DNA of 64,000 nucleotides from Acidihalobacter aeolianus (lineage in GTDB: Bacteria > Pseudomonadota > Gammaproteobacteria > DSM-5130 > Acidihalobacteraceae). Location of the stretch: assembly GCF_001753165.1 (NCBI RefSeq), contig NZ_CP017448.1, positions 2,126,462 through 2,190,461 of the forward strand, written 5' to 3'. Below, one piece after another: positions 37,046 through 49,630 of this stretch. How positions within the stretch are numbered: the stretch's first letter is position 1; each line of letters begins with the position of its first letter. Position numbers and translations under genes: made by a program. The notes under the pieces were generated by a model, which saw nothing but the letters and a program-made list of their open reading frames with translations, was not told the origin of the DNA and searched no databases.

Positions 37046-39058
37046 ATGAGCAACCTCAGAAAAACTCAATTGATTAAGGGCTTGCCAGCGCTAGCTGCTC
37101 TGTTTTCTCTAACAGGATGCGCTACGCTGGATCGCCTGGGAGACACAGGTCCACAGGCAACTGGCTTGACAACCAGTTCTGCCGCTAGTGATACCGCGCC
37201 CTGTACTACGGGATCGAACGGCACGTCACCAGCCTGTCAGACGTTGTCCGCTGTATCAGCAACTGATGACAACAGCAGCATTGCCGCCCCTGCTACCTCA
37301 CAAACTGTGATGACGGGAAATGCTGCCAATTCAGGCGCATCGCCCAGCGCGCCACCCGGTACCGGCAACACTGCCACAATGACCCCGGCGTCCTCGACAT
37401 CGGCGGTGCAGCCTGCTCAAAATGAAACTATCTGGACAGACATCAGGGACGGCTTCAAGCTCCCTGACAACCTTGATCAGCCATTAGTACAACAAGCAAT
37501 AGCCTTTTACCGGCAGCACCCCGCTTACCTTGAACGGGTGACTGCCCGTGCAGAACCTTATCTGTACTACATCCTCCAACAGATTCATCAGCGACATATG
37601 CCCACAGAACTGGCCTTGTTGCCAGTGGTGGAAAGCGCTTACATACCGTACGCTTACTCAAGCTGCCAGGCCGCCGGAATTTGGCAATTCACGCCATCAA
37701 CTGGGCGCCACTTTGGTCTGAAACAAAATTGGTGGTATGACGGCCGTCGCGATATATACGCCTCGACAAAGGCGGCCCTCGACTATCTACAGTCATTACA
37801 CGACCAATTCGGTAGCTGGCTACTCGCACTTGCCGCATATAACTCAGGCGCCGGCACCGTCCAGTGGGCGATCAAGCGTAATCAAGAACGACACCAACCT
37901 ACTGACTTCTGGGCTCTGGATCTCCCCGAACAAACTAAGACCTACGTTCCCAAGCTGCTTGCGGTTAAAGCAATCGTAGAACACCCCAGACAGTTCAATG
38001 TCAGCTTATGGCCCATACCAGACAAGCCCTACCTTGCTGTCGTTCACCTCAAATCTCAAATCGATCTAGCCCTCGCAGCCAAACTGGCTGGCATAAAACT
38101 AAACGAATTATACCTCCTCAACCCGGGTTACAACCGATGGGCCACAGACCCTAACGGGCCACACAGACTGTTGCTTCCCGCTGATTCGGTTCAAGGCTTT
38201 GAAGAGAAACTGGCAAGCATCCCTGCCAGCGAGAGAGTTACCTGGATTCGGCATCGGGTGAGGGCTGGTGACACCCTGGGCCAAATCGCGGACGAGTATC
38301 ACACCTCGATCAGGGTTATCAGGCAAACCAATCACTTAAATGGCAACATTATTCGGATTGGACAATATCTTATCGTTCCGAAATCATCTCGCCCTTATGC
38401 AGAATATGCGATGGCCGAAGGGTTACGGCACCGCATGCCCCAAACCGCCCACAGGGGTGAAAAGTTGTACCACACCGTAAAAGCAGGAGACACCTTGTGG
38501 GACATTGCCCAAGCGAATGGTGTGTCCGTTGAGAATCTTGCGAGATGGAATAATCTGTCGGCACGCTCACCGCTACGCTTGGGACAACGCCTTGTAATCT
38601 GGAGCGGTGCGCGGAAAAGCGTACATTCGAGAACTGAGCGACTCGCGTCCATCAACCAGCAAACTCAATTATCTGTAGCTGGAACTGATTACCATATAGT
38701 CAAACCTGGCGACACACTATGGGGCATCGCAGAAAGCGACAACATAAGCGTTGCCGAACTACTGCGCTGGAATCATCTTAGCCCTCACACCGCGCTACAC
38801 CCAGGTCAACGCCTAATCATTCACCAAACTAACGGTTCCGGTCTCGCCTTAGCAAGCAGTGGCCAACCGACCCAACGCGTACGCGTACTATCATACGTTG
38901 TGAGGAATGGCGACTCCCTATATAGCATAGCGCAAAAATTTGGCGTTAATATTCCCGCGATTCGCAAATGGAATGACCTCTGGGATACTAATGTGCTGCA
39001 CCCCGGACAACCGTTAAAGTTAAGAGTGGACGTTACTCAAATGCATAACGAAAGCTAA
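37046..39058 (+). CDS. mltD: Membrane-bound lytic murein transglycosylase D, LysM repeats
   Basis: Outer-membrane lipoprotein that cleaves peptidoglycan with formation of 1,6-anhydromuramic ends. 670 aa from MSNLRKTQLIKGLPALAALFSLTGC (lipobox SLTGC, broken here only by reading). A Ser/Thr/Ala-rich linker of roughly 110 residues precedes the SLT domain with catalytic Glu in LPVVESAYIPYA, plus GIWQFTPSTGRHFGL and ALAAYNSGAGTVQ. Four LysM repeats follow, each opening with a V(R/K)xGDxL core. Four is more than the two of E. coli MltD. The next gene starts 99 bp downstream. Confidence 0.94.
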   Translation: MSNLRKTQLIKGLPALAALFSLTGCATLDRLGDTGPQATGLTTSSAASDTAPCTTGSNGTSPACQTLSAVSATDDNSSIAAPATSQTVMTGNAANSGASPSAPPGTGNTATMTPASSTSAVQPAQNETIWTDIRDGFKLPDNLDQPLVQQAIAFYRQHPAYLERVTARAEPYLYYILQQIHQRHMPTELALLPVVESAYIPYAYSSCQAAGIWQFTPSTGRHFGLKQNWWYDGRRDIYASTKAALDYLQSLHDQFGSWLLALAAYNSGAGTVQWAIKRNQERHQPTDFWALDLPEQTKTYVPKLLAVKAIVEHPRQFNVSLWPIPDKPYLAVVHLKSQIDLALAAKLAGIKLNELYLLNPGYNRWATDPNGPHRLLLPADSVQGFEEKLASIPASERVTWIRHRVRAGDTLGQIADEYHTSIRVIRQTNHLNGNIIRIGQYLIVPKSSRPYAEYAMAEGLRHRMPQTAHRGEKLYHTVKAGDTLWDIAQANGVSVENLARWNNLSARSPLRLGQRLVIWSGARKSVHSRTERLASINQQTQLSVAGTDYHIVKPGDTLWGIAESDNISVAELLRWNHLSPHTALHPGQRLIIHQTNGSGLALASSGQPTQRVRVLSYVVRNGDSLYSIAQKFGVNIPAIRKWNDLWDTNVLHPGQPLKLRVDVTQMHNES

Positions 39059-39157
39059 CGACTGACAACAACTTCACGGATGAGCCATCCCTCGTAACGG
39101 GAAGGCATACGCCCCCTACTACGACACCGATAATTCCGGGGGAAAGTCCAATAAAAC

Positions 39158-41758
39158 ATGAACTCAAAAAGCATGGGGCGAACCACCACAGACCGGCCAT
39201 TTTGGGCAAATAATTGGACCTGGATTTCCGCTACCATATTGATAGTCGCGGTTTTTTCTATGTTTAGTCTGCTCGATCCAATCGACCACCTCATATTTCA
39301 CATCTTCTCCCGCCTTACCCCCGCGACCTCACAAAACCAAATAGCCCTGATCCACATAGGAAACACAAGCGGATCACCACCGGATGGAATATCAGGCAAC
39401 CCACGAGCGCTACTAGCCCGACTAATTCTCACAGTCAAGCTCGGCAATCCCAAAATCATTGCAGTCACATCCCCGCTATTTAAGCCGAATCAGAACTCCG
39501 GGTTACGCGCTTTAAATAATCTCAGAGAGGAATATAAGTCCAAGAACCTAAAAACATGGGATAAAATCACTATAAATCTAAAAAATAAATTAAACAAATA
39601 CGACGCAGCAGAGATAGACAAGGTCACACTTGATAACGAACAGTTCTATGCTCACATAGTGCAGGAGGAAGATAAACTCAATTACGACAACCAACTTAGC
39701 CAAGCCATTGCAGAATCAAAGTATTTAGACCTTAAGTTCAGCTATATGCCCGGGATCTCGCAAGGGATTCCTCATACCCCCCTCCCCTCATCAATAACCA
39801 AATATGCATTACCTTCGACGATAATTAAAGCCAATCCACCAAGCGTATATTCACTGTCATTACCTTTGCCCATATTCATCCAACACGCGACCGCAGCGGG
39901 GGCCTATTTAGCCCCCCCACACACATGGAGTAGATATTCAGGAACACCTCTAGCAGTCCGGTATCATGATGCAATCTTACCTAGCCTAGCCCTCATAATA
40001 GCCATGCAAAGTCTTGGCACCTCGCCCGAGAATGTTACATACCAAAATAATATAGGATTAAAACTAGACGAATTCTTAATCCGAACAGGCGAAGGAACAA
40101 AAATACACCCTCACTTATATTTGGCACATAACAAACGTCATTACGCCTTCGCCAATTACTCGGGTGAAAATATAATCAACGGAATAACCAACCCATTAAT
40201 ATTTAAAGATAAAATACTTATAATTGGGATAAACGGCTTAGAACCACTTGCATCTGAGGTTTCAGGAATTCTTACACAGAATCTCATTTACTCACCAAAG
40301 TGGAGCCCATATGCGCAATTAGTGGCATGTACAATTATTATTATTTATCTACTAGCCTTACCCGCAAGATTTAATATCAAATTCACAATCGTGGCGACAT
40401 CCGCATTCCTTGTAACTGTTCTAATATTAGATTTCTATGTCTTCAAAACAGCCAATCAATGGATACCAGCAGCCAATAGTATTGGCTTGCTTGTTCTTGG
40501 TGAATTTGGCTTTTATCTAAAAAGGAGACTACATAACAACCTAGGCATACTCCCCATATCCAAGGGAAATCTAGATAACATCAGACTCCTTGGTATAGCA
40601 TTCCAGAGTCAAGGACAACTCGATCTAGCATATGACAGATTCCGCCACTTGCCGATTAACGAAGAATCCATCGAACTCTTGTACGGGTTAGCGCTTGATT
40701 ATGAGCGCAGAAGACGGTTTGAAAAGGCCAAGACTATTTACGAACTTATCGCATCGCACCACAAGCACTACCGGGATGTTCGTGAGCGCATGAAACGGAC
40801 CCAGACGCTGACAGAAATCACCGCTTGCCCAAAAAACACTACGAATACGGAAGTCAGCGTTAACAATGGAACTCTGATCCTCTCTCACGCCGGGTTACAG
40901 AAACCCATGCTTGGAAGATATGAAATAGACCATGAAGTTGGTCGCGGCGCAATGAGTATTGTATATGAAGGGAATGACCCCAAAATCGGTAGGAGAGTGG
41001 CCATCAAAACGCTATCTCTTGCTACTGAATTCCAGGGAGATGATTTAAAACATGTCAAATCTAGATTCTATAGAGAAGCCGAAACTGCGGGTCAATTAAA
41101 CCACCCGAATATCGTTACGATTTACGATGCAGGCGAACAAGATGAAATTGCTTATATCGCCATGGAATATCTACATGGAAAGAATCTGACAGCCTTCACA
41201 AACAAAAATGATCTTTTACCTATAACAACTGTTTTAGAGATTGCGGCGAAATGTGCACAAGCGCTTGATTATGCTCACAAGCATCAAGTAATACACCGTG
41301 ATATAAAGCCAGCCAATATTGTCTACAATATAGATACGGGCGAAGTTAAGCTTACTGACTTTGGCATCGCCAGAATTACCGATGCCAGCAGAACGAGAAC
41401 TGGCGTAATAATGGGGACACCATCATACATGTCACCAGAACAACTCGCAGGGCGTAAACTTGATGGCAGATCCGATCTATTCTCATTAGGAATCACATGC
41501 TTCCAGCTACTCACTGGGACCCTCCCATTCCACGCTGAAACAATGGCCACTTTAATGTTCAAGATTACAAATGAAGCACACCCAGCTCTCAACGCATTAA
41601 GAGGCGATTTAGCTCCATGTGTTAGCCCCATCATCAATAAGTCTCTTCAAAAGTATCCCGAAAAACGATTCCAAACCGGCCGAGAATTTGCCAATCACCT
41701 TCTTAGATGCGCACGAAGCATCAAGGAAATATCAAATGAATCCAGACAACACATTTGA
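39158..41758 (+). CDS. CHASE2-domain transmembrane serine/threonine protein kinase
   Basis: 866-aa Hanks-type receptor kinase. Order: N-terminal transmembrane helix (about 21-43), extracytoplasmic CHASE2 sensor (about 45-380), three helices (about 382-455), a TPR-like helical linker (about 470-555) and a kinase domain (about 585-850). Kinase motifs are complete: GRGAMSIVYEG loop, VAIK lysine, HRDIKPANI catalytic loop, DFGIA, and GTPSYMSPEQL activation segment, so it should be active. The CHASE2 region keeps the typical order of blocks but the usual IDxxS reads IGNTS. The gene is strikingly AT-rich and overlaps the PP2C gene by 23 bp. Its ligand and targets are unknown. Confidence 0.9.
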   Translation: MNSKSMGRTTTDRPFWANNWTWISATILIVAVFSMFSLLDPIDHLIFHIFSRLTPATSQNQIALIHIGNTSGSPPDGISGNPRALLARLILTVKLGNPKIIAVTSPLFKPNQNSGLRALNNLREEYKSKNLKTWDKITINLKNKLNKYDAAEIDKVTLDNEQFYAHIVQEEDKLNYDNQLSQAIAESKYLDLKFSYMPGISQGIPHTPLPSSITKYALPSTIIKANPPSVYSLSLPLPIFIQHATAAGAYLAPPHTWSRYSGTPLAVRYHDAILPSLALIIAMQSLGTSPENVTYQNNIGLKLDEFLIRTGEGTKIHPHLYLAHNKRHYAFANYSGENIINGITNPLIFKDKILIIGINGLEPLASEVSGILTQNLIYSPKWSPYAQLVACTIIIIYLLALPARFNIKFTIVATSAFLVTVLILDFYVFKTANQWIPAANSIGLLVLGEFGFYLKRRLHNNLGILPISKGNLDNIRLLGIAFQSQGQLDLAYDRFRHLPINEESIELLYGLALDYERRRRFEKAKTIYELIASHHKHYRDVRERMKRTQTLTEITACPKNTTNTEVSVNNGTLILSHAGLQKPMLGRYEIDHEVGRGAMSIVYEGNDPKIGRRVAIKTLSLATEFQGDDLKHVKSRFYREAETAGQLNHPNIVTIYDAGEQDEIAYIAMEYLHGKNLTAFTNKNDLLPITTVLEIAAKCAQALDYAHKHQVIHRDIKPANIVYNIDTGEVKLTDFGIARITDASRTRTGVIMGTPSYMSPEQLAGRKLDGRSDLFSLGITCFQLLTGTLPFHAETMATLMFKITNEAHPALNALRGDLAPCVSPIINKSLQKYPEKRFQTGREFANHLLRCARSIKEISNESRQHI

Positions 41759-42563
41759 TTGGGCCTCAGCGACCGATGTAGGACGCGTAAGAAACAACAA
41801 CGAAGACGCACTTGCCGCATCAACTGAGATTGGAATATTTGTACTAGCTGATGGCATGGGTGGACACAAAAGTGGCGAAATAGCCAGTAATCTAGCTATC
41901 ACCACTGTACTTGATCACCTGTCTCATACACTACCCGAACTCATCCCCGGGCGAATTGATGAAGATATTGGTTATACGCGTGAAAGCATAGCAATAAGAG
42001 AGGCTATTATTCATGCCAACGAAACCATCCACCAAACAGCACAAAAGCAAATAGAATATGAAGGGATGGGTACAACAATTGTATTACTTGGGTTCTACGG
42101 TCCTCGCATGACGGTTGCACATGTAGGGGATTCTCGCGTGTACAGATTCAGGAATGAACAACTGGAACAACTGACAAGCGATCACACTATGCTTCAAGAA
42201 CTAGTTGACCGCGGGTTTTACACAGAAGAAGAAGCCCAAAAATCTATGCATAAAAATCTCGTCACACGCGCATTGGGAGCCGATGCGACTGTTGCTGTAG
42301 ACATTCAAGAAGACCTCGTATTGCCTGGTGACACATACCTCTTGTGCTCAGATGGTTTACATGACTTTGTTGACAGCACACACATAATCGAATACATAAC
42401 AACCATCGACGATTTAAACAAGTGCTCTAAACAACTGATTGAAGAAGCAAACAGAAATGGCGGGAGAGACAACATCTCGCTTATTTTAATCAGACCGAAA
42501 GGCACCTTCAGGATAAAAAAACCCTTAATCAGCAAAATAAAAAGCTGGATATCCAAAAAATGA
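41736..42563 (+). CDS. PP2C-family serine/threonine protein phosphatase
   Basis: 275-aa stand-alone PPM/PP2C phosphatase, likely the antagonist of the kinase. Metal-binding motifs: VRNNNEDALA, VLADGMGGHKSGEIAS, VAHVGDSRVYRF, LLCSDGLHDFV and GGRDNISLILI, so all catalytic aspartates are present. No membrane helix is seen. The start MNPDNTFDWASATDVG lies inside the kinase gene (23-bp overlap), which suggests coupled translation. AT-rich like its neighbours. Confidence 0.93.
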   Translation: MNPDNTFDWASATDVGRVRNNNEDALAASTEIGIFVLADGMGGHKSGEIASNLAITTVLDHLSHTLPELIPGRIDEDIGYTRESIAIREAIIHANETIHQTAQKQIEYEGMGTTIVLLGFYGPRMTVAHVGDSRVYRFRNEQLEQLTSDHTMLQELVDRGFYTEEEAQKSMHKNLVTRALGADATVAVDIQEDLVLPGDTYLLCSDGLHDFVDSTHIIEYITTIDDLNKCSKQLIEEANRNGGRDNISLILIRPKGTFRIKKPLISKIKSWISKK

Positions 42564-42707
42564 ATTATATTGTCTTTAACTTTATTTTATCGTCATAGCT
42601 AATGTTAGATTAACCATGTACAAACTATTTTTCATTCAATGAAAATACAAAAAACATACATCCATGCCTCGCATTGTCTACTTTGGCCCACATACTAGGA
42701 GATAATC

Positions 42708-43421
42708 ATGGCCAAACTCATACTTAGTCACGACGCGCACTCAATTGACGAATTCTCCATCGAAGAGGAATGCATCACAATTGGACGAAAACCCGACAAT
42801 GATATTCAAATACATGACAAAGCAGTTAGCGGCTATCATTGCCAGATAATTACTGTACTTAATGATTCATTCCTTGAAGACTTACATAGCACAAATGGCA
42901 CCTTTGTTAATACCCGAAAAATCACCAAATACGCTCTTCACCATCTCGATAAGATAAGCCTAGGCACACATGTAATACAATATATTAACGACCTAAATGA
43001 CGTACAAGATGAAAAACACGATTATGACAAGACCATGATACTGAGAACCACTCCACATAGAACAACTACTCATCCAATAACCGGCAAAATCTCTTCCGAG
43101 GAGAATGGGCTACAAAACCCATTGAATTCAATACAAGAACCCGCGACACCAATAGCTCAACTCGAAATACTTAACGGATCTAATAAAGGAAAACTATACA
43201 AACTCAGCCGCCCAATGACCACACTTGGGAAACCCGGAAGTCAAGTCGCGGTAATTACACGTCGCGCACATAACTACGTTATTATCGGGGTGGAGGCTGA
43301 TAGCACAGGACTTTATCCTCGTCTTAACGGTATACCAGTAAGTGTCAGGTCAATGCCTCTTTCAAATGGTGATGCCATAGAAGTAGCCGGCATACAGATG
43401 ACTTTCCATCATTCAAAGTAA
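42708..43421 (+). CDS. FHA-domain protein (tandem FHA)
   Basis: 237-aa cytoplasmic phosphothreonine reader. The first FHA domain (about 20-90) has the hallmark residues GRKPDNDI, SGYHCQI and STNGTFVN. A Thr-rich linker contains DKTMILRTTPHRTT, a plausible kinase target. A second FHA-like fold (about 145-237) keeps TLGKPGSQ, LNGIPV and NGDAIEVAGIQMTF but lacks the SxxH signature (RRAHNYVI), so it may not bind phosphothreonine. A good AGGAGA site precedes the ATG. 144 bp of AT-rich DNA separate it from the PP2C gene. Confidence 0.9.
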   Translation: MAKLILSHDAHSIDEFSIEEECITIGRKPDNDIQIHDKAVSGYHCQIITVLNDSFLEDLHSTNGTFVNTRKITKYALHHLDKISLGTHVIQYINDLNDVQDEKHDYDKTMILRTTPHRTTTHPITGKISSEENGLQNPLNSIQEPATPIAQLEILNGSNKGKLYKLSRPMTTLGKPGSQVAVITRRAHNYVIIGVEADSTGLYPRLNGIPVSVRSMPLSNGDAIEVAGIQMTFHHSK

Positions 43422-43489
43422 TGCCCCCCTAAGCGAGGCAAAGCAGTCGAAAAATCAATTAATAATATCTGATATTTCTTTAATAAACT

Positions 43490-43642
43490 CACACATAAGC
43501 AATATGTGTGCGGCCAGGTCAGCCGCACTGTGATATCACATGCGCTATAGTCAACCTCATACATGACTAACGTGTTTATCGCTTTTTTATCACAAAAATG
43601 ACATAAGTGTGATTGTAATCAAAACTCCACGTATCATATTAT
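43490..43642 (+). promoter_or_regulatory. fabI upstream region with clustered dyads and a candidate promoter
   Basis: The 275-bp interval between the FHA gene and fabI holds a hairpin CACACATA/TATGTGTG (43490-43510), a GCGGC/GCCGC hairpin directly after it, the perfect 12-bp palindrome TGTGATATCACA (43529-43540), and ATCACA...TGTGAT spaced by 13 bp (43589-43613). A candidate promoter TTGTAA (43613-43618), 18 bp, TATTAT (43637-43642) abuts the last half-site. The repeated TGTGAT/ATCACA word suggests an operator for an unidentified regulator. Confidence 0.45.
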
Positions 43643-43696
43643 ATCGCCACTTTAAGTTAAGATATTTTCCCGTAACTTCATGAATGGAGAAGAACT

Positions 43697-44473
43697 GTGA
43701 CTCTATTAACAGGTAAGCGCGCACTAATTACCGGCGTCGCAAGTGAGCGATCAATCGCCTGGGGTATAGCACAAGCCTTGAATAGGGAGGGAGCAGAATT
43801 AGCGTTCACCTATCCAAATATACGACTCAAGGAGCGTGTCGAAAAATTTGCCCAGAAATGCAGCAGTGATATAGTACTTCCTTGCGATGTTGCTAATGAC
43901 ACTGAAATAGAATCTATGTTTACACAGCTGAAAGACCGCTGGACCAACCTAGATATACTAATCCATGCGATTGCCTATGCACCAAAGGAGCAACTAGAAG
44001 GTGACTATCTGCAGAATGTCACCAGAGAAGGCTTCAGAATTGCTCACGACATCAGCTCATATAGCCTTGCCGCAATGGCAAAGTATTCCCGTGAAATGAT
44101 GCAAGGTCGGCAAGCATCCATTGTCACACTCAGTTATCTAGGTGCAGAACGCGCCATGCCAAATTACAACGTCATGGGTTTGGCAAAAGCTAGTTTAGAA
44201 GCGAATGTGCGCTATCTCGCGTATACTCTAGGACCGGAAGGAATCAGAGTAAACGCCATATCGGCTGGCCCAATACGCACCTTGGCTGCATCGGGAATAA
44301 GTGATTTCAGACGGATGCTTGAACAGGTTGAGCAGACCGCCCCTCTTAGAAAAAACGTTACGATCGATGAAGTCGGCAACACTGCCTTGTTCTTATCTTC
44401 CGATCTCGCATCCGGAATCACTGGCGAGACGATTTATGTGGATGCCGGTTACAATATAGTCGGACTTGGTTAA
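43697..44473 (+). CDS. fabI: Enoyl-[acyl-carrier-protein] reductase (NADH) FabI
   Basis: Last reduction step of each fatty acid elongation cycle. 258 aa, GTG start preceded by GGAG. Short-chain dehydrogenase fold with cofactor motif [18 protein letters not shown], the catalytic Tyr-x6-Tyr-x6-Lys segment [18 protein letters not shown], and [11 protein letters not shown]. The position equivalent to E. coli Gly93 is Ala ([10 protein letters not shown]). Convergent with ppiD, 28 bp apart. Confidence 0.96.
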
Positions 44474-44501
44474 ATATCAAACCCACCTGTAATACACCTG
44501 C

Positions 44502-46415
44502 TCAATAATTCAGGTTACTAGGGTATATCTTGATCTCAGTAGATTCTTGTAAGGCCTGTAGCACGACTGCCATTTGATTCTTTAACTGCTGCGCCAACAC
44601 ATTCTTCGTAGGCGCAGTAGTAGATTTTGACTGGGCTGCATTATCATCGGGTAAACGCACTTTGTTCACTTCAACTACGGCGTAATTCCCAGCCCCTAAC
44701 GACGTCGCAGTGACTAATGGCTTATCGCTACTCGATGGCGTACCTAGCTTAAACGCTGCATTCAAAATGGCATTTGGCACGATAGAAGCGTCTCTGCGCA
44801 CCCAGCCGAGATTACGGTACCTGAGTTGATATTTACTAGCCACCAGTTGCGCACTCTGCCCGTTAGTCAGATCTTTCTCTATATTTTTAGCAAGCTTACT
44901 TGCCTCATCTGTAGCATAGCGACGCACGAGTAAACCATTGATCTTATCTTCGACCTCAGTCAATGGTTTCACAGTAGGTAGTTTTTTCCCCGTCACTCTA
45001 ATTACAACCGCATCGCCCGCACCCAGTTCGATTAGTGAACTATTAGCCCCTTCATCTAGAACTGCTTTTGTAAATGCCGCTTTAACTACTTTCGGATTAG
45101 TCGCAATTCCACTACCACCAGTTTTTTCGAACCACCCCGTCTGCTTGATCTTCAAATCAAGTGCTTTTGATGCCGCTTGAAGGCTACCAGGGTGCTCATA
45201 TGCCAATTCCGATAGCCGCTGAATAGAGTTTTCATATTGTGTTTTCGATGCCTCAGCCAAGTAGTCTTTCTGTACCAAATCTTTAACCTTATTATATTTA
45301 AGATAATCATAGGTTAAGATGGAGTTCAGCTTCAGCACATACCATTTCCCATCATATTCGACGGGATTGGAAATTGATCCAACTTTAAGTTTATACAGCG
45401 CTTTCTCTATAACGTTTGGGAAATCAGTCCTCTCTCCCACATTATTGATTTTCACAGAACCCAGTCGCAGTTTCATTTTATGCGATATTTCTGTAGCCAA
45501 ATGCTTAATATCCCCATTACTTGCCGATAACTGTCTGATCTGATTTACAAATGACGACAGCTTATCTTTCTCTGAAGCTATTTTAGGTGCATCAAGTACT
45601 ATTTCAGAATACCTAACACGATTTGGTATCGCATAAGCCTTTCTGTGAGATTCGTAGTAATTCTGTAACTCATCAACTGAAGGTTTTATTAAACTCTGTA
45701 GATGCTTTTCACTTAAGCGAATATAGCTTACATTCACTTTCTCATTCGTCATAAACTGATTAGCATGCGCCTGATAATATTTCTTTATTTCTGACGGCTT
45801 AACTACGATCGAGTTTATAAATTTTGATGTTGGAATTACCATCATCCCAACTTCCCTCTCTTCACCTAGTAGCTTTACAACCCAGCCACGCTGTTGTTTC
45901 GTTGTGAATGCAGAAGCATATATTCCAGATTGAAATTGCTGTATTAGCAACTGCTTTCTAAGCATATTCTCAAAGTTAGCTGGCGAGAGCCCTTGATCAG
46001 CGAGTACTTGATGATATTTATTGTTTGAGAATGATCCATTAACTTGGAAGATAGGGTAGCCCATTATCTGCCGCACCAACTGTTTATCACTAATTTTATA
46101 TCCTGATCCAACCAAATTTTCTGTTAATACAGCCTCTTGAATTAACTGCCGCAATACAGCTTGTTTAATGGTTTTATTGTCTAAATTGTCTGGCAATTTC
46201 CCACCGAACAGTTCTGACAAACGCAGTTGTTCCTGCCGGTATGACCTCTCAAACGTTCTAATCGTGATCGGCTGCCCACCAACCAGAGCAACATTTTGTG
46301 TCCCGCCCCCGTCCAGGTAATGATTTATTCCCCACAGGGCAAATGGGATACTTATGAGGAATATAATCGCGTAAGCAAACCAACCAGATGCTCTATCTCG
46401 TATCGTCTGAAGCAT
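44502..46415 (-). CDS. ppiD: Periplasmic chaperone/peptidyl-prolyl isomerase PpiD
   Basis: Membrane-anchored SurA-like chaperone that works near the Sec translocon on emerging outer membrane proteins. 637 aa: short cytoplasmic N-terminus, single transmembrane helix (about 13-30, WFAYAIIFLISIPFALWG), SurA-N-like chaperone domain (about 40-230), and a parvulin-like PpiC domain around 265-365 that looks divergent. Position after hupB and lon is the conserved lon-hupB-ppiD order. Preceded by a long inverted repeat that should insulate it from the tRNA transcript. Confidence 0.93.
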   Translation of the reverse strand: MLQTIRDRASGWFAYAIIFLISIPFALWGINHYLDGGGTQNVALVGGQPITIRTFERSYRQEQLRLSELFGGKLPDNLDNKTIKQAVLRQLIQEAVLTENLVGSGYKISDKQLVRQIMGYPIFQVNGSFSNNKYHQVLADQGLSPANFENMLRKQLLIQQFQSGIYASAFTTKQQRGWVVKLLGEEREVGMMVIPTSKFINSIVVKPSEIKKYYQAHANQFMTNEKVNVSYIRLSEKHLQSLIKPSVDELQNYYESHRKAYAIPNRVRYSEIVLDAPKIASEKDKLSSFVNQIRQLSASNGDIKHLATEISHKMKLRLGSVKINNVGERTDFPNVIEKALYKLKVGSISNPVEYDGKWYVLKLNSILTYDYLKYNKVKDLVQKDYLAEASKTQYENSIQRLSELAYEHPGSLQAASKALDLKIKQTGWFEKTGGSGIATNPKVVKAAFTKAVLDEGANSSLIELGAGDAVVIRVTGKKLPTVKPLTEVEDKINGLLVRRYATDEASKLAKNIEKDLTNGQSAQLVASKYQLRYRNLGWVRRDASIVPNAILNAAFKLGTPSSSDKPLVTATSLGAGNYAVVEVNKVRLPDDNAAQSKSTTAPTKNVLAQQLKNQMAVVLQALQESTEIKIYPSNLNY

Positions 46416-46459
46416 TACACACCTAGCTAAATATTGGCGATTCAGGACTTAACGCAAAC

Positions 46460-46522
46460 CTTGTGCAGTACAAAATTAAAAAGGCGCCATAGAGGCGCCT
46501 TTTTAATTTTGTACTGCACAAG
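46460..46522 (-). terminator. 29-bp perfect inverted repeat / bidirectional terminator
   Basis: Arms 46460-46488 and 46494-46522 are perfectly complementary over 29 bp around the five-base loop ATAGA. The core is GGCGCC flanked by AAAAA/TTTTT, so each strand reads as a GC stem followed by a T-tract, that is an intrinsic terminator working both ways. It begins five bases after the CCA of tRNA-Asp and 44 bp before the ppiD start on the same strand. Confidence 0.85.
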
Positions 46523-46527
46523 ACAAC

Positions 46528-46604
46528 TGGCGGAGTGGACGGGACTCGAACCCGCGACCCCCGGCGTGACAGGCCGGTATTCTAACCAGCTGAACTACCA
46601 CTCC
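46528..46604 (-). tRNA. tRNA-Asp (GTC anticodon)
   Basis: 77-base cloverleaf on the minus strand: acceptor stem GGAGTGG/CCACTCC, anticodon stem-loop CCGGCCTGTCACGCCGG with GTC, T arm GCGGGTTCGAGTCCCGT, encoded CCA. 16 bp after tRNA-Val and likely cotranscribed with it and hupB. Confidence 0.97.
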
Positions 46605-46620
46605 TAAGAACTGATTACCC

Positions 46621-46696
46621 TGGTGGGTGCTGAGGGAGTCGAACCCCCGACATTCGCCTTGTAAGGGCGACGCTCTACCAGCTGAGCTAAGCACCC
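46621..46696 (-). tRNA. tRNA-Val (TAC anticodon)
   Basis: 76-base cloverleaf: acceptor stem GGGTGCT/AGCACCC, anticodon loop CTTACAA giving TAC, T arm GGGGGTTCGACTCCCTC, encoded CCA. It starts 11 bp after the hupB stop. Confidence 0.97.
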
Positions 46697-46707
46697 AGGA
46701 AAGCCGC

Positions 46708-46980
46708 TTAGTTTACAGCATCCTTAAGAGCCTTACCAGGCTTAAATGCTGGCAGATTAGAAGCCGCGATATTGATCGATTCACCAGTCCGTGGATTACG
46801 ACCAGTACGCGCCTCACGTTGACGCACAGTGAAGCTACCGAAGCCGACGATAACAACTTGGTCGCCCTGCTTCATCGCGCCGGTCACGACCTCAACAAAA
46901 GCATCAAGCGCCTTACCTGCTGATGCCTTCGAGAGGTCGGCCTTAGCGGCAATCGCGTCAATCAATTCTGATTTATTCAT
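46708..46980 (-). CDS. hupB: DNA-binding protein HU-beta
   Basis: Histone-like nucleoid protein, 90 aa from [22 protein letters not shown]. The DNA-binding beta arm carries the family signature [22 protein letters not shown]. Lies between lon and ppiD as in E. coli. A frame to 47028 adds 16 unrelated residues and was not used. Confidence 0.97.
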
Positions 46981-47129
46981 GCGGGTCTTCCCTATTCGTT
47001 GAGATGCATAATTAGACACCCACCCCATCGTCAGGTGGAGAACACACCCGGGGTCTCATCGCGGGGGAGCGTTTACCTCGCAGCCAGCGCCGTAGAAGCA
47101 TTTTATACATGGCTGCGCGCGAGAGTGGT

Positions 47130-47159
47130 TTTATAACAAGCCCCCTCAGATACTGTCAA
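47130..47159 (-). promoter_or_regulatory. Strong candidate hupB promoter
   Basis: TTGACA (47159-47154), 18-bp spacer, TATAAA (47135-47130) on the minus strand, within the lon-hupB interval. It would give a leader of about 140 nt that can form a stem CGCAGCC/GGCTGCG, unusually long for hupB. Confidence 0.65.
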
Positions 47160-47176
47160 CCTAGATTTGCATCCGC

Positions 47177-49630
47177 CTAATGTGGGCGAGAGCCACGTTT
47201 CTTTACTTCACGCTCGCCCTTTTTTGCTACAGATCCTGTGGTAGTTGGTAGCTTCTCAGGTGTCTCGTCGAGCGGTTCAGGCTGGTGCTGCAAGGCCATC
47301 CCCAGAACCTCATCTATCCACCTCACCGGATGTATATCTAATTGAGCTTTAATATCCTTCGGAATCTCAGTCAGATCACGCTCATTCTCATGCGGAATTA
47401 AAACCGTATTTATTCCACCTCGGTGTGCTGCAAGTAGCTTTTCTTTTAGCCCACCGATCGGGAGCACTTCTCCTCTCAGCGTGATTTCACCTGTCATCGC
47501 CACATCGGCACGGACCGGGATATGTGTGATCGCAGATACCAGCGCAGTACACATTGCAATACCAGCGCTTGGGCCGTCTTTCGGAGTGGCGCCTTCTGGC
47601 ACGTGTATATGTATATCGTGTTTTTCAAAATAATCGTCGGTAATCCCAAGGACACGCGCTCGCGATCGCACGACAGTACGCGCAGCCTCGATAGATTCTT
47701 TCATTACATCACCCAGTTGTCCTGTCCGGATAATATTACCCTTACCAGCAACTGGAGTGACCTCTATCGTGAGCAAATCTCCTCCAACTTCTGTCCAAGC
47801 AAGGCCGGTAACCTGGCCAATCTGATCCTCTTTTTCGGCACGCCCGTACCTAAATCTTTGCACACCCAGATACTTATCCAAATTTTTGGGAGTTACATTC
47901 GTCTTTTTATCAATCCCGCTTAAGGCGTGTCCCATAACAACTTTACGGCACACTTTTGACACTTCGCGCTCGAGATTACGAACACCAGCCTCTCGAGTGT
48001 AGTGTCGAATAATGTCTCGAATTGCGGCATCAGTGATCTGCAATTCCCCATCTTTCATTCCATTATGCTTGTACTGCTTGGGCAGTAAATACCGCTTTGC
48101 AATATTCGCTTTTTCATCTTCCGTATAGCCAGGAAGTCGAATCACTTCCATACGATCTAATAATGGACCGGGAATATTCATACTATTGGCTGTCGCCACA
48201 AATAAAACATCCGACAAATCAAAATCAACTTCGAGATAATGATCTGCGAATGCATGGTTCTGTTCAGGGTCAAGAACCTCCAATAGTGCTGATGCAGGAT
48301 CCCCCCGGAAATCCATTGCCATCTTGTCAATTTCATCAAGTAGAAATAATGGATTTCTTGTCCCCACACGGGATAAATTCTGAATAATCTTCCCCGGAAG
48401 AGACCCTATATACGTTCGCCTATGACCGCGAATCTCAGCTTCATCGCGCACACCGCCCAAAGCCATCCTAGTAAATTTTCTATTTGTTGCGCGAGCAATC
48501 GACCGACCTAACGACGTCTTGCCTACGCCAGGCGGCCCTACGAGGCACAGGATTGGTCCCTTGAGCTTTTTGACGCGCTGCTGTACTGCAAGATACTCAA
48601 GTATACGTTCCTTAACTTTTTCCAGACCATAATGATCTTCATCGAGGATGCGTTGCGCTGCCGTGAGATCTAGACTCACTTTAGATTTTTTTTTCCACGG
48701 CACACTGACTAACCAATCAATATAGTTACGTACCACCGTGGCCTCTGCAGACATCGGTGACATCATTTTCAGCTTGTTAAGCTCAGCATCTGCCTTTTGA
48801 CGCGCATCCTTCGGCATACCTGACTTCTCTATACGCTGCGCCAACTCCTCAACCTCGTTAGGCGCATCTTCAAGCTCACCCAACTCCTTTTGGATGGCCT
48901 TCATCTGCTCATTCAGGTAATACTCTCTCTGGCTTTTCTCCATTTGCTGTTTGACGCGGCCACGAATTCGTTTTTCGATCTGTAGCAGATCAATCTCTCC
49001 TTCGATTAGCCCCATGATATGCTCCAGGCGTTCACGCACATCCTGTATTTCGAGCACGTTTTGCTTTTCTTCCAGTTTCAGTGACATATGCGCTGCCACG
49101 GTGTCCGCAAGCCTGGCAACGTCGTCAATACCCGCCAATGAGGTAAGAATCTCGGGTGGTATCTTCTTATTAAGTTTTACGTATTGATCAAACAGGTTCA
49201 AAACTGAACGGGTAAGAACCTCGATTTCACGCTCATCGGTCGGCGTCGCCGGCTTGAGAAGCTGGATTTGTGCAGAAAAGGTGTCGTCAAGCTCGATAAA
49301 ATCCACAACCTGAGCTCGTTCTGACCCTTCAACAAGGACCTTGATTGTACCGTCAGGCAGTTTTAACAACTGCAAAATGGACGACAAAGTTCCGATTCGA
49401 TGAATATCCTTCGGACCCGGATCATCCACTTCTGCACTCCGCTGGGCTACTAACAAAATTTTCTTGTTGTCCAGCATGGCGCGATCCAATGCCTTGATTG
49501 ATTTATCCCGCCCTACGAACAGAGGGATGACCATATGTGGATACACAACGACGTCGCGCAAAGGAAGCACTGGTACAAGCATCGTTTGCTCGTCAGTAAT
49601 CAGACTTTGTTGATCGGAATCCTTATCCAT
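47177..49630 (-). CDS. lon: ATP-dependent protease La (Lon)
   Basis: Cytoplasmic AAA+ serine protease that removes misfolded and regulatory proteins. 817 aa: N-terminal substrate-binding LonN domain, coiled coil, Walker [18 protein letters not shown] near residue 357, Walker [10 protein letters not shown], and the protease domain with the Ser-Lys dyad in [15 protein letters not shown] and [17 protein letters not shown]. The C-terminal 40 residues are basic. A sigma-32-like promoter lies upstream. Confidence 0.97.

Follow-up and report, generated by a model that had tools for sequence, protein, structure and literature searches.

According to the TERMITe report, upstream A-rich tracts serve as a sign of bidirectional terminators, rarer in Gram-negative bacteria, and the species medians of hairpin length fall between 20 and 35 nt (PMC12207403). 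A second process relevant to long hairpins is template switching, by which perfect stems can be mended or formed in a single step (PMC8794818). Here we describe a palindrome from Acidihalobacter aeolianus that has features of both. It lies directly after a tRNA gene in the window (the whole stretch of 64,000 nt that was analyzed). Like bidirectional intrinsic terminators, this palindrome has a GC core, a U-tract that follows it, a mirror A-tract that precedes it, and a position directly after a transcription unit. Unlike them, its pairing continues 12 bp beyond the A/T tracts. It contains 58 paired nt, compared to species medians of 20 to 35 stem nt, and its 63 nt are more than the 59 nt that the annotation pipeline used in the TERMITe paper allows for a stem-loop (PMC12207403). 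With template-switch palindromes it shares perfect arms, a short loop, and a full length that is found in one lineage only.

The element is an inverted repeat at 46460-46522 whose two 29-nt arms (46460-46488 and 46494-46522) are 100% complementary, with no mismatch, around a 5-nt loop. Five bases (46523-46527) separate its stem from tRNA-Asp. Both the perfect 29-bp repeat and the five-base distance had been reported in the first-pass annotation, and both proved exact. On the minus strand the gene order is lon, hupB, tRNA-Val, tRNA-Asp, hairpin, ppiD (Table 1). We assigned the lon-like and hupB-like names from the protein sequences, and we take the gene beyond the hairpin to be ppiD-like from its protein sequence together with the lon-hupB-ppiD order. 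Rfam, searched at gathering thresholds, returned eight matches, all of them tRNA. The predicted RNA fold of 46440-46535 has a free energy of -52.2 kcal/mol, whereas shuffles average -18.8 (z = -12.1), and none of 200 shuffles folded as well.

Table 1. Parts of the palindrome and the genes around it (window positions).
Feature	Position	Strand	Basis and remarks
Putative terminator core, GGCGCC - 5-nt loop - GGCGCC	46483..46499		Sequence; fold alone -12.2 kcal/mol
Left A/T tract	46472..46482		AAAATTAAAAA on plus strand; UUUUUAAUUUU in minus-strand RNA
Right A/T tract	46500..46510		Mirrors left tract; U-tract in plus-strand RNA
Outer arm, ppiD side, 12 bp	46460..46471		Sequence
Outer arm, tRNA side, 12 bp	46511..46522		Sequence
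tRNA-Asp (GTC)	46528..46604	-	ARAGORN, Rfam tRNA; last gene ahead of hairpin
tRNA-Val (TAC)	46621..46696	-	ARAGORN, Rfam tRNA; 5' of tRNA-Asp, same direction
ppiD-like gene	44502..46415	-	ORF list; start 44 nt past hairpin
hupB-like gene	46708..46980	-	ORF listed as 46708-47028, start likely 46980; 5' of tRNAs

The anatomy of the palindrome points to a terminator. Its minus-strand RNA reads GGCGCC-UCUAU-GGCGCC, followed by UUUUUAAUUUU, which is paired to the mirror A-tract, and then by 12 further pairs. The GC-rich stem and short loop of an intrinsic terminator are thus present (6-bp GGCGCC, 5-nt loop), and UUUUUAAUUUU, read from the sequence as a U-tract, lies right after the GC stem, although it is interrupted by AA. 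The GGCGCC stem followed by UUUUUAAUUUU would free the polymerase ahead of ppiD. We placed this release point in the U-tract, as is general for intrinsic termination. A 53-nt minus-strand RNA, given a hand-picked end within the U-tract, folds to the core and tract stem alone (-21.8 kcal/mol), and the read-through RNA forms the full perfect stem (-48.7 kcal/mol). An automatic terminator scan made no call at the palindrome, a result probably due to its counting all 29 bp as stem and seeking T residues only beyond them. Going from this observed structure to termination itself, we infer that the palindrome is likely the Rho-independent terminator of the tRNA-Val/tRNA-Asp unit, with a stem that was lengthened in this lineage to a perfect 29 bp. 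The mirror A-tract gives each strand a stem with its own U-tract, so that a plus-strand (antisense) RNA would be stopped by the same signal, and the terminator is probably bidirectional. The bidirectional insulator suggested in the first-pass annotation stands in this respect as anatomy only, namely as the mirrored A- and T-tracts, which may serve both strands.

To place the hairpin in a wider context, we collected 99 related loci, 19 from a whole-genome search and 80 named loci found via the lon protein. Nineteen of the 99 were excluded, having either no recognized tRNA-Asp or less than 60 nt beyond it, which left 80 relatives. With tRNA-Asp sought on both strands, we looked in each for a perfect hairpin of at least 6 bp that included 4 or more GC pairs and lay within the 60 nt past tRNA-Asp; the count was made on the 3' flank of tRNA-Asp, whatever gene comes next. 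Such a hairpin was present in 53 of the 80 relatives, compared to 2.25 per 80 in mononucleotide shuffles, and the remaining 27 had no qualifying perfect hairpin within these 60 nt. Perfect stems reached at least 8 bp in 45 relatives, at least 12 bp in 10, and 17 bp in one; none reached 20 bp. The innermost 6 nt of the stem took 27 different sequences among the 48 arms of at least 7 bp, so the structure persists while its sequence changes.

The closest comparisons come from five genomes, the same five being returned by the family and order searches. One congener (G001) has a 17-bp perfect stem. In the other (G002) these 17 positions include one mismatch, and the longest perfect run is 11 bp. 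Both congener stems end in ACAAA/TTTGT, and the innermost 19 bp of the 29-bp stem end likewise; its outermost 10 bp have no counterpart in either congener. In two genomes from a further genus of the family the folded stems are shorter, with 9 and 10 pairs. In an alignment of the five spacers, the outer arms were not reliably aligned. As judged from these comparisons, the over-long perfect stem is a lineage-specific extension of a putative terminator that is kept in most of the relatives examined. The first-pass annotation had held that relatives with only the core and unrelated flanks, together with a lack of copies elsewhere, would reduce the finding to a chance extension. By that rule the finding does narrow, to a conserved terminator extended in one lineage. 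Chance hardly accounts for the extension, and the stem already has 17 positions in the congeners.

We then asked how unusual such a length is. Among perfect hairpins in the window with a loop of 3 to 12 nt, the 29-bp stem ranks first in length, and the runner-up has 14 bp. In a sample of the same chromosome (twenty 20-kb stretches, 400 kb) the longest perfect hairpin has 16 bp, or 17 bp when loops are widened to 20 nt. A larger set of 137 loci totaling 1.90 Mb, made up of 17 relatives' loci, the 80 named loci, the own-genome sample, and samples of the two congeners, contained 26 perfect hairpins of at least 15 bp (loops of 0 to 20 nt). Six of its hairpins have arms of at least 20 bp, with lengths of 20, 21, 21, 22, 23, and 33. 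The 29-bp palindrome is therefore in the far tail of the length distribution, yet others of its kind exist. Three of these, terminator-like palindromes in relatives (L028 4675-4720, L076 9277-9320, and L067 10400-10449), likewise combine a GC-rich stem, an A/T tract, and perfect pairing beyond; they differ in having arms of 20 to 23 bp and in lying elsewhere in the genome, those of L028 and L067 being 82 to 87 nt past the lon match. The palindrome is, in short, of an ordinary kind and of extreme length. At a separate locus (L100 14534-14610) lies a perfect inverted repeat that exceeds the window's 29-bp stem, with 33 bp and a loop of 11 nt; one of its ends carries A5 and the other T5.

A chance origin of the 29-bp perfect palindrome is very unlikely, given that it has 18 extra pairs past the first T-run, compared to 9 in the best other such hairpin. 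This agrees with the first-pass annotation, which had separated a core terminator from extra pairing beyond it that is not readily due to chance. Short palindromes are tolerated in DNA. The further argument of that annotation, that perfect long arms are unstable in DNA unless recent or selected, is doubtful for a 63-bp element, since the palindromes in the E. coli study were 246 to 480 bp long (PMC4245961).

Other explanations for the palindrome differ in how well they fit these data. A selected double-stranded RNA site would have RNase III cut the 29-bp duplex of the read-through transcript, parting the tRNA precursor from the ppiD mRNA and leaving ppiD with a processed 5' end. RNase III needs a stem of about two helical turns. 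The read-through stem is perfect, very stable (-48.7 kcal/mol), and more than two turns long, and it sits between the tRNA and a ppiD start 44 nt on. We found no sigma-70 consensus promoter in 46300-47100, a region that includes the surroundings of ppiD, so ppiD might depend on read-through. Processing of the read-through RNA by RNase III is possible, as may be the 3'-processing signal that the first-pass annotation had also suggested. As the reason for the stem's length, however, a selected site seems unlikely: stem length is not conserved, with 17 bp as the longest perfect stem among the 80 relatives and none of the 80 reaching 20 bp, and the sequence gives nothing by which to tell a processing site from a by-product. 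The arms could instead hold an operator, as each contains TTGTGCAGTACAA (dyad TTGT-N5-ACAA), which a regulator of ppiD might bind. The dyad is present twice, with starts 48 bp apart, and has no other exact copy in the genome. When up to two mismatches were allowed, however, the 13-mer TTGTGCAGTACAA had 47 genome matches (both arms counted) compared to 38 for a reversed control, which gives no clear sign of a regulon, and we did not see the dyad by eye in the congeners' spacers. Given the lack of a clear excess over the reversed control, we set the operator and regulon reading aside as very improbable.

tRNA genes are a common insertion neighborhood, and the long perfect palindrome adjoins one, a setting in which the first-pass annotation had suggested the relic of a palindromic mobile repeat. 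That annotation had also proposed searching the genome for the arm sequence. We ran this search with the 18-nt outer pattern (46460-46477), which, at up to three mismatches, occurs in its own genome solely in this hairpin. At up to one mismatch the pattern was found in one of 274 class genomes, the window's own, in a set that includes one of the two congeners; the 273 others thus hold no second copy, and viral contigs gave no exact match. The palindrome region had no phage match, and its sole plasmid match, in an Aeromonas plasmid, covers 25 bases of the terminator core only. In addition, the core sits where most of the examined relatives carry a hairpin. With only a single copy found across the genome, the class genomes, viral contigs, and phages, and nothing besides the core in a plasmid, we found no support for a dispersed or mobile repeat, and we regard a copy or relic of one as extremely improbable.

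The reading that we prefer, a tRNA-unit terminator whose stem was lengthened in this lineage, raises the question of why the stem is so long. The outer 12 bp would lie past the expected release point, so that only DNA or a read-through RNA would contain both halves, and their manner of origin would account for their perfection better than any demand for stronger termination. Perhaps replicational template switching copied one arm from the other and thereby lengthened a working bidirectional terminator, an origin that would, like the release point and two-strand action, go beyond the observed structure. The mechanism by which a quasipalindrome becomes a palindrome through template switching is described in PMC8794818 and reportedly also in PMC7202029. 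To tell the copied arm from the ancestral one, we compared each side with the two congeners. For the outer parts alone, the tRNA-side arm showed a slight resemblance (0.20 and 0.037 of the shuffles did as well) and the ppiD-side arm none (0.51 and 0.59). For whole flanks, both sides were weakly similar (0.12 and 0.034; 0.054 and 0.076), and neither arm stood out as the copy.

To see whether terminators are extended more generally, we examined the 21 hairpins with an A-tract and a T-tract found in 1.91 Mb (the window, the own-genome sample, the two congeners, and the 80 named loci). Four of the 21 have a palindromic extension of at least 6 bp past the first T-run, compared to a null mean of 0.24 when flanks were dealt among them; this null allows a hairpin to be its own partner in about 1/21 of cases and so overstates chance. 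When this element and its orthologue in G001 are set aside, 19 hairpins remain, of which 2 extend by at least 8 bp. These 2 of 19 constitute the independent support for extended terminators, the 19 probably including the unextended G002 orthologue, and the small excess of extended stems is a hint. We speculate, with little confidence, that terminators nucleate template switching, that the grown outer arms become a second, RNase III-dependent barrier to read-through RNA, and that this element is the extreme case. A narrow full-text literature search, judged by titles and the starts of abstracts, yielded nothing on template switching at terminators in bacterial genomes. If the template-switch reading is true, traces of that mutation process could be read from the terminator palindromes of bacterial genomes. 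Above all, the element offers a clear worked example, in which the putative terminator is kept in place among relatives and its core, tract, and outer arm apparently have different histories.

The surroundings of the palindrome have features of their own. The ppiD-like protein (44502-46415) shares 43 to 44% identity with the homologues on the same stretches of the two congeners, and its neighbors are far better conserved between congeners (lon, 90%; hupB, 96 to 97%; clpX, 96%). Three consecutive ORFs at 39158-43421 come before a fabI-like gene, and both congeners have them at 55 to 65% identity; by eye, their products resemble a Ser/Thr protein kinase, a PP2C-type phosphatase, and an FHA-domain protein. 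The region from 39000 to 49500 forms a valley of low G+C content (0.39 to 0.52 in 1-kb windows; sampled genome mean, 0.62). Most of the same genes in the two congeners are also below the sampled genome means (0.58 and 0.64), by less, and the valley looks old and deepest in this genome.
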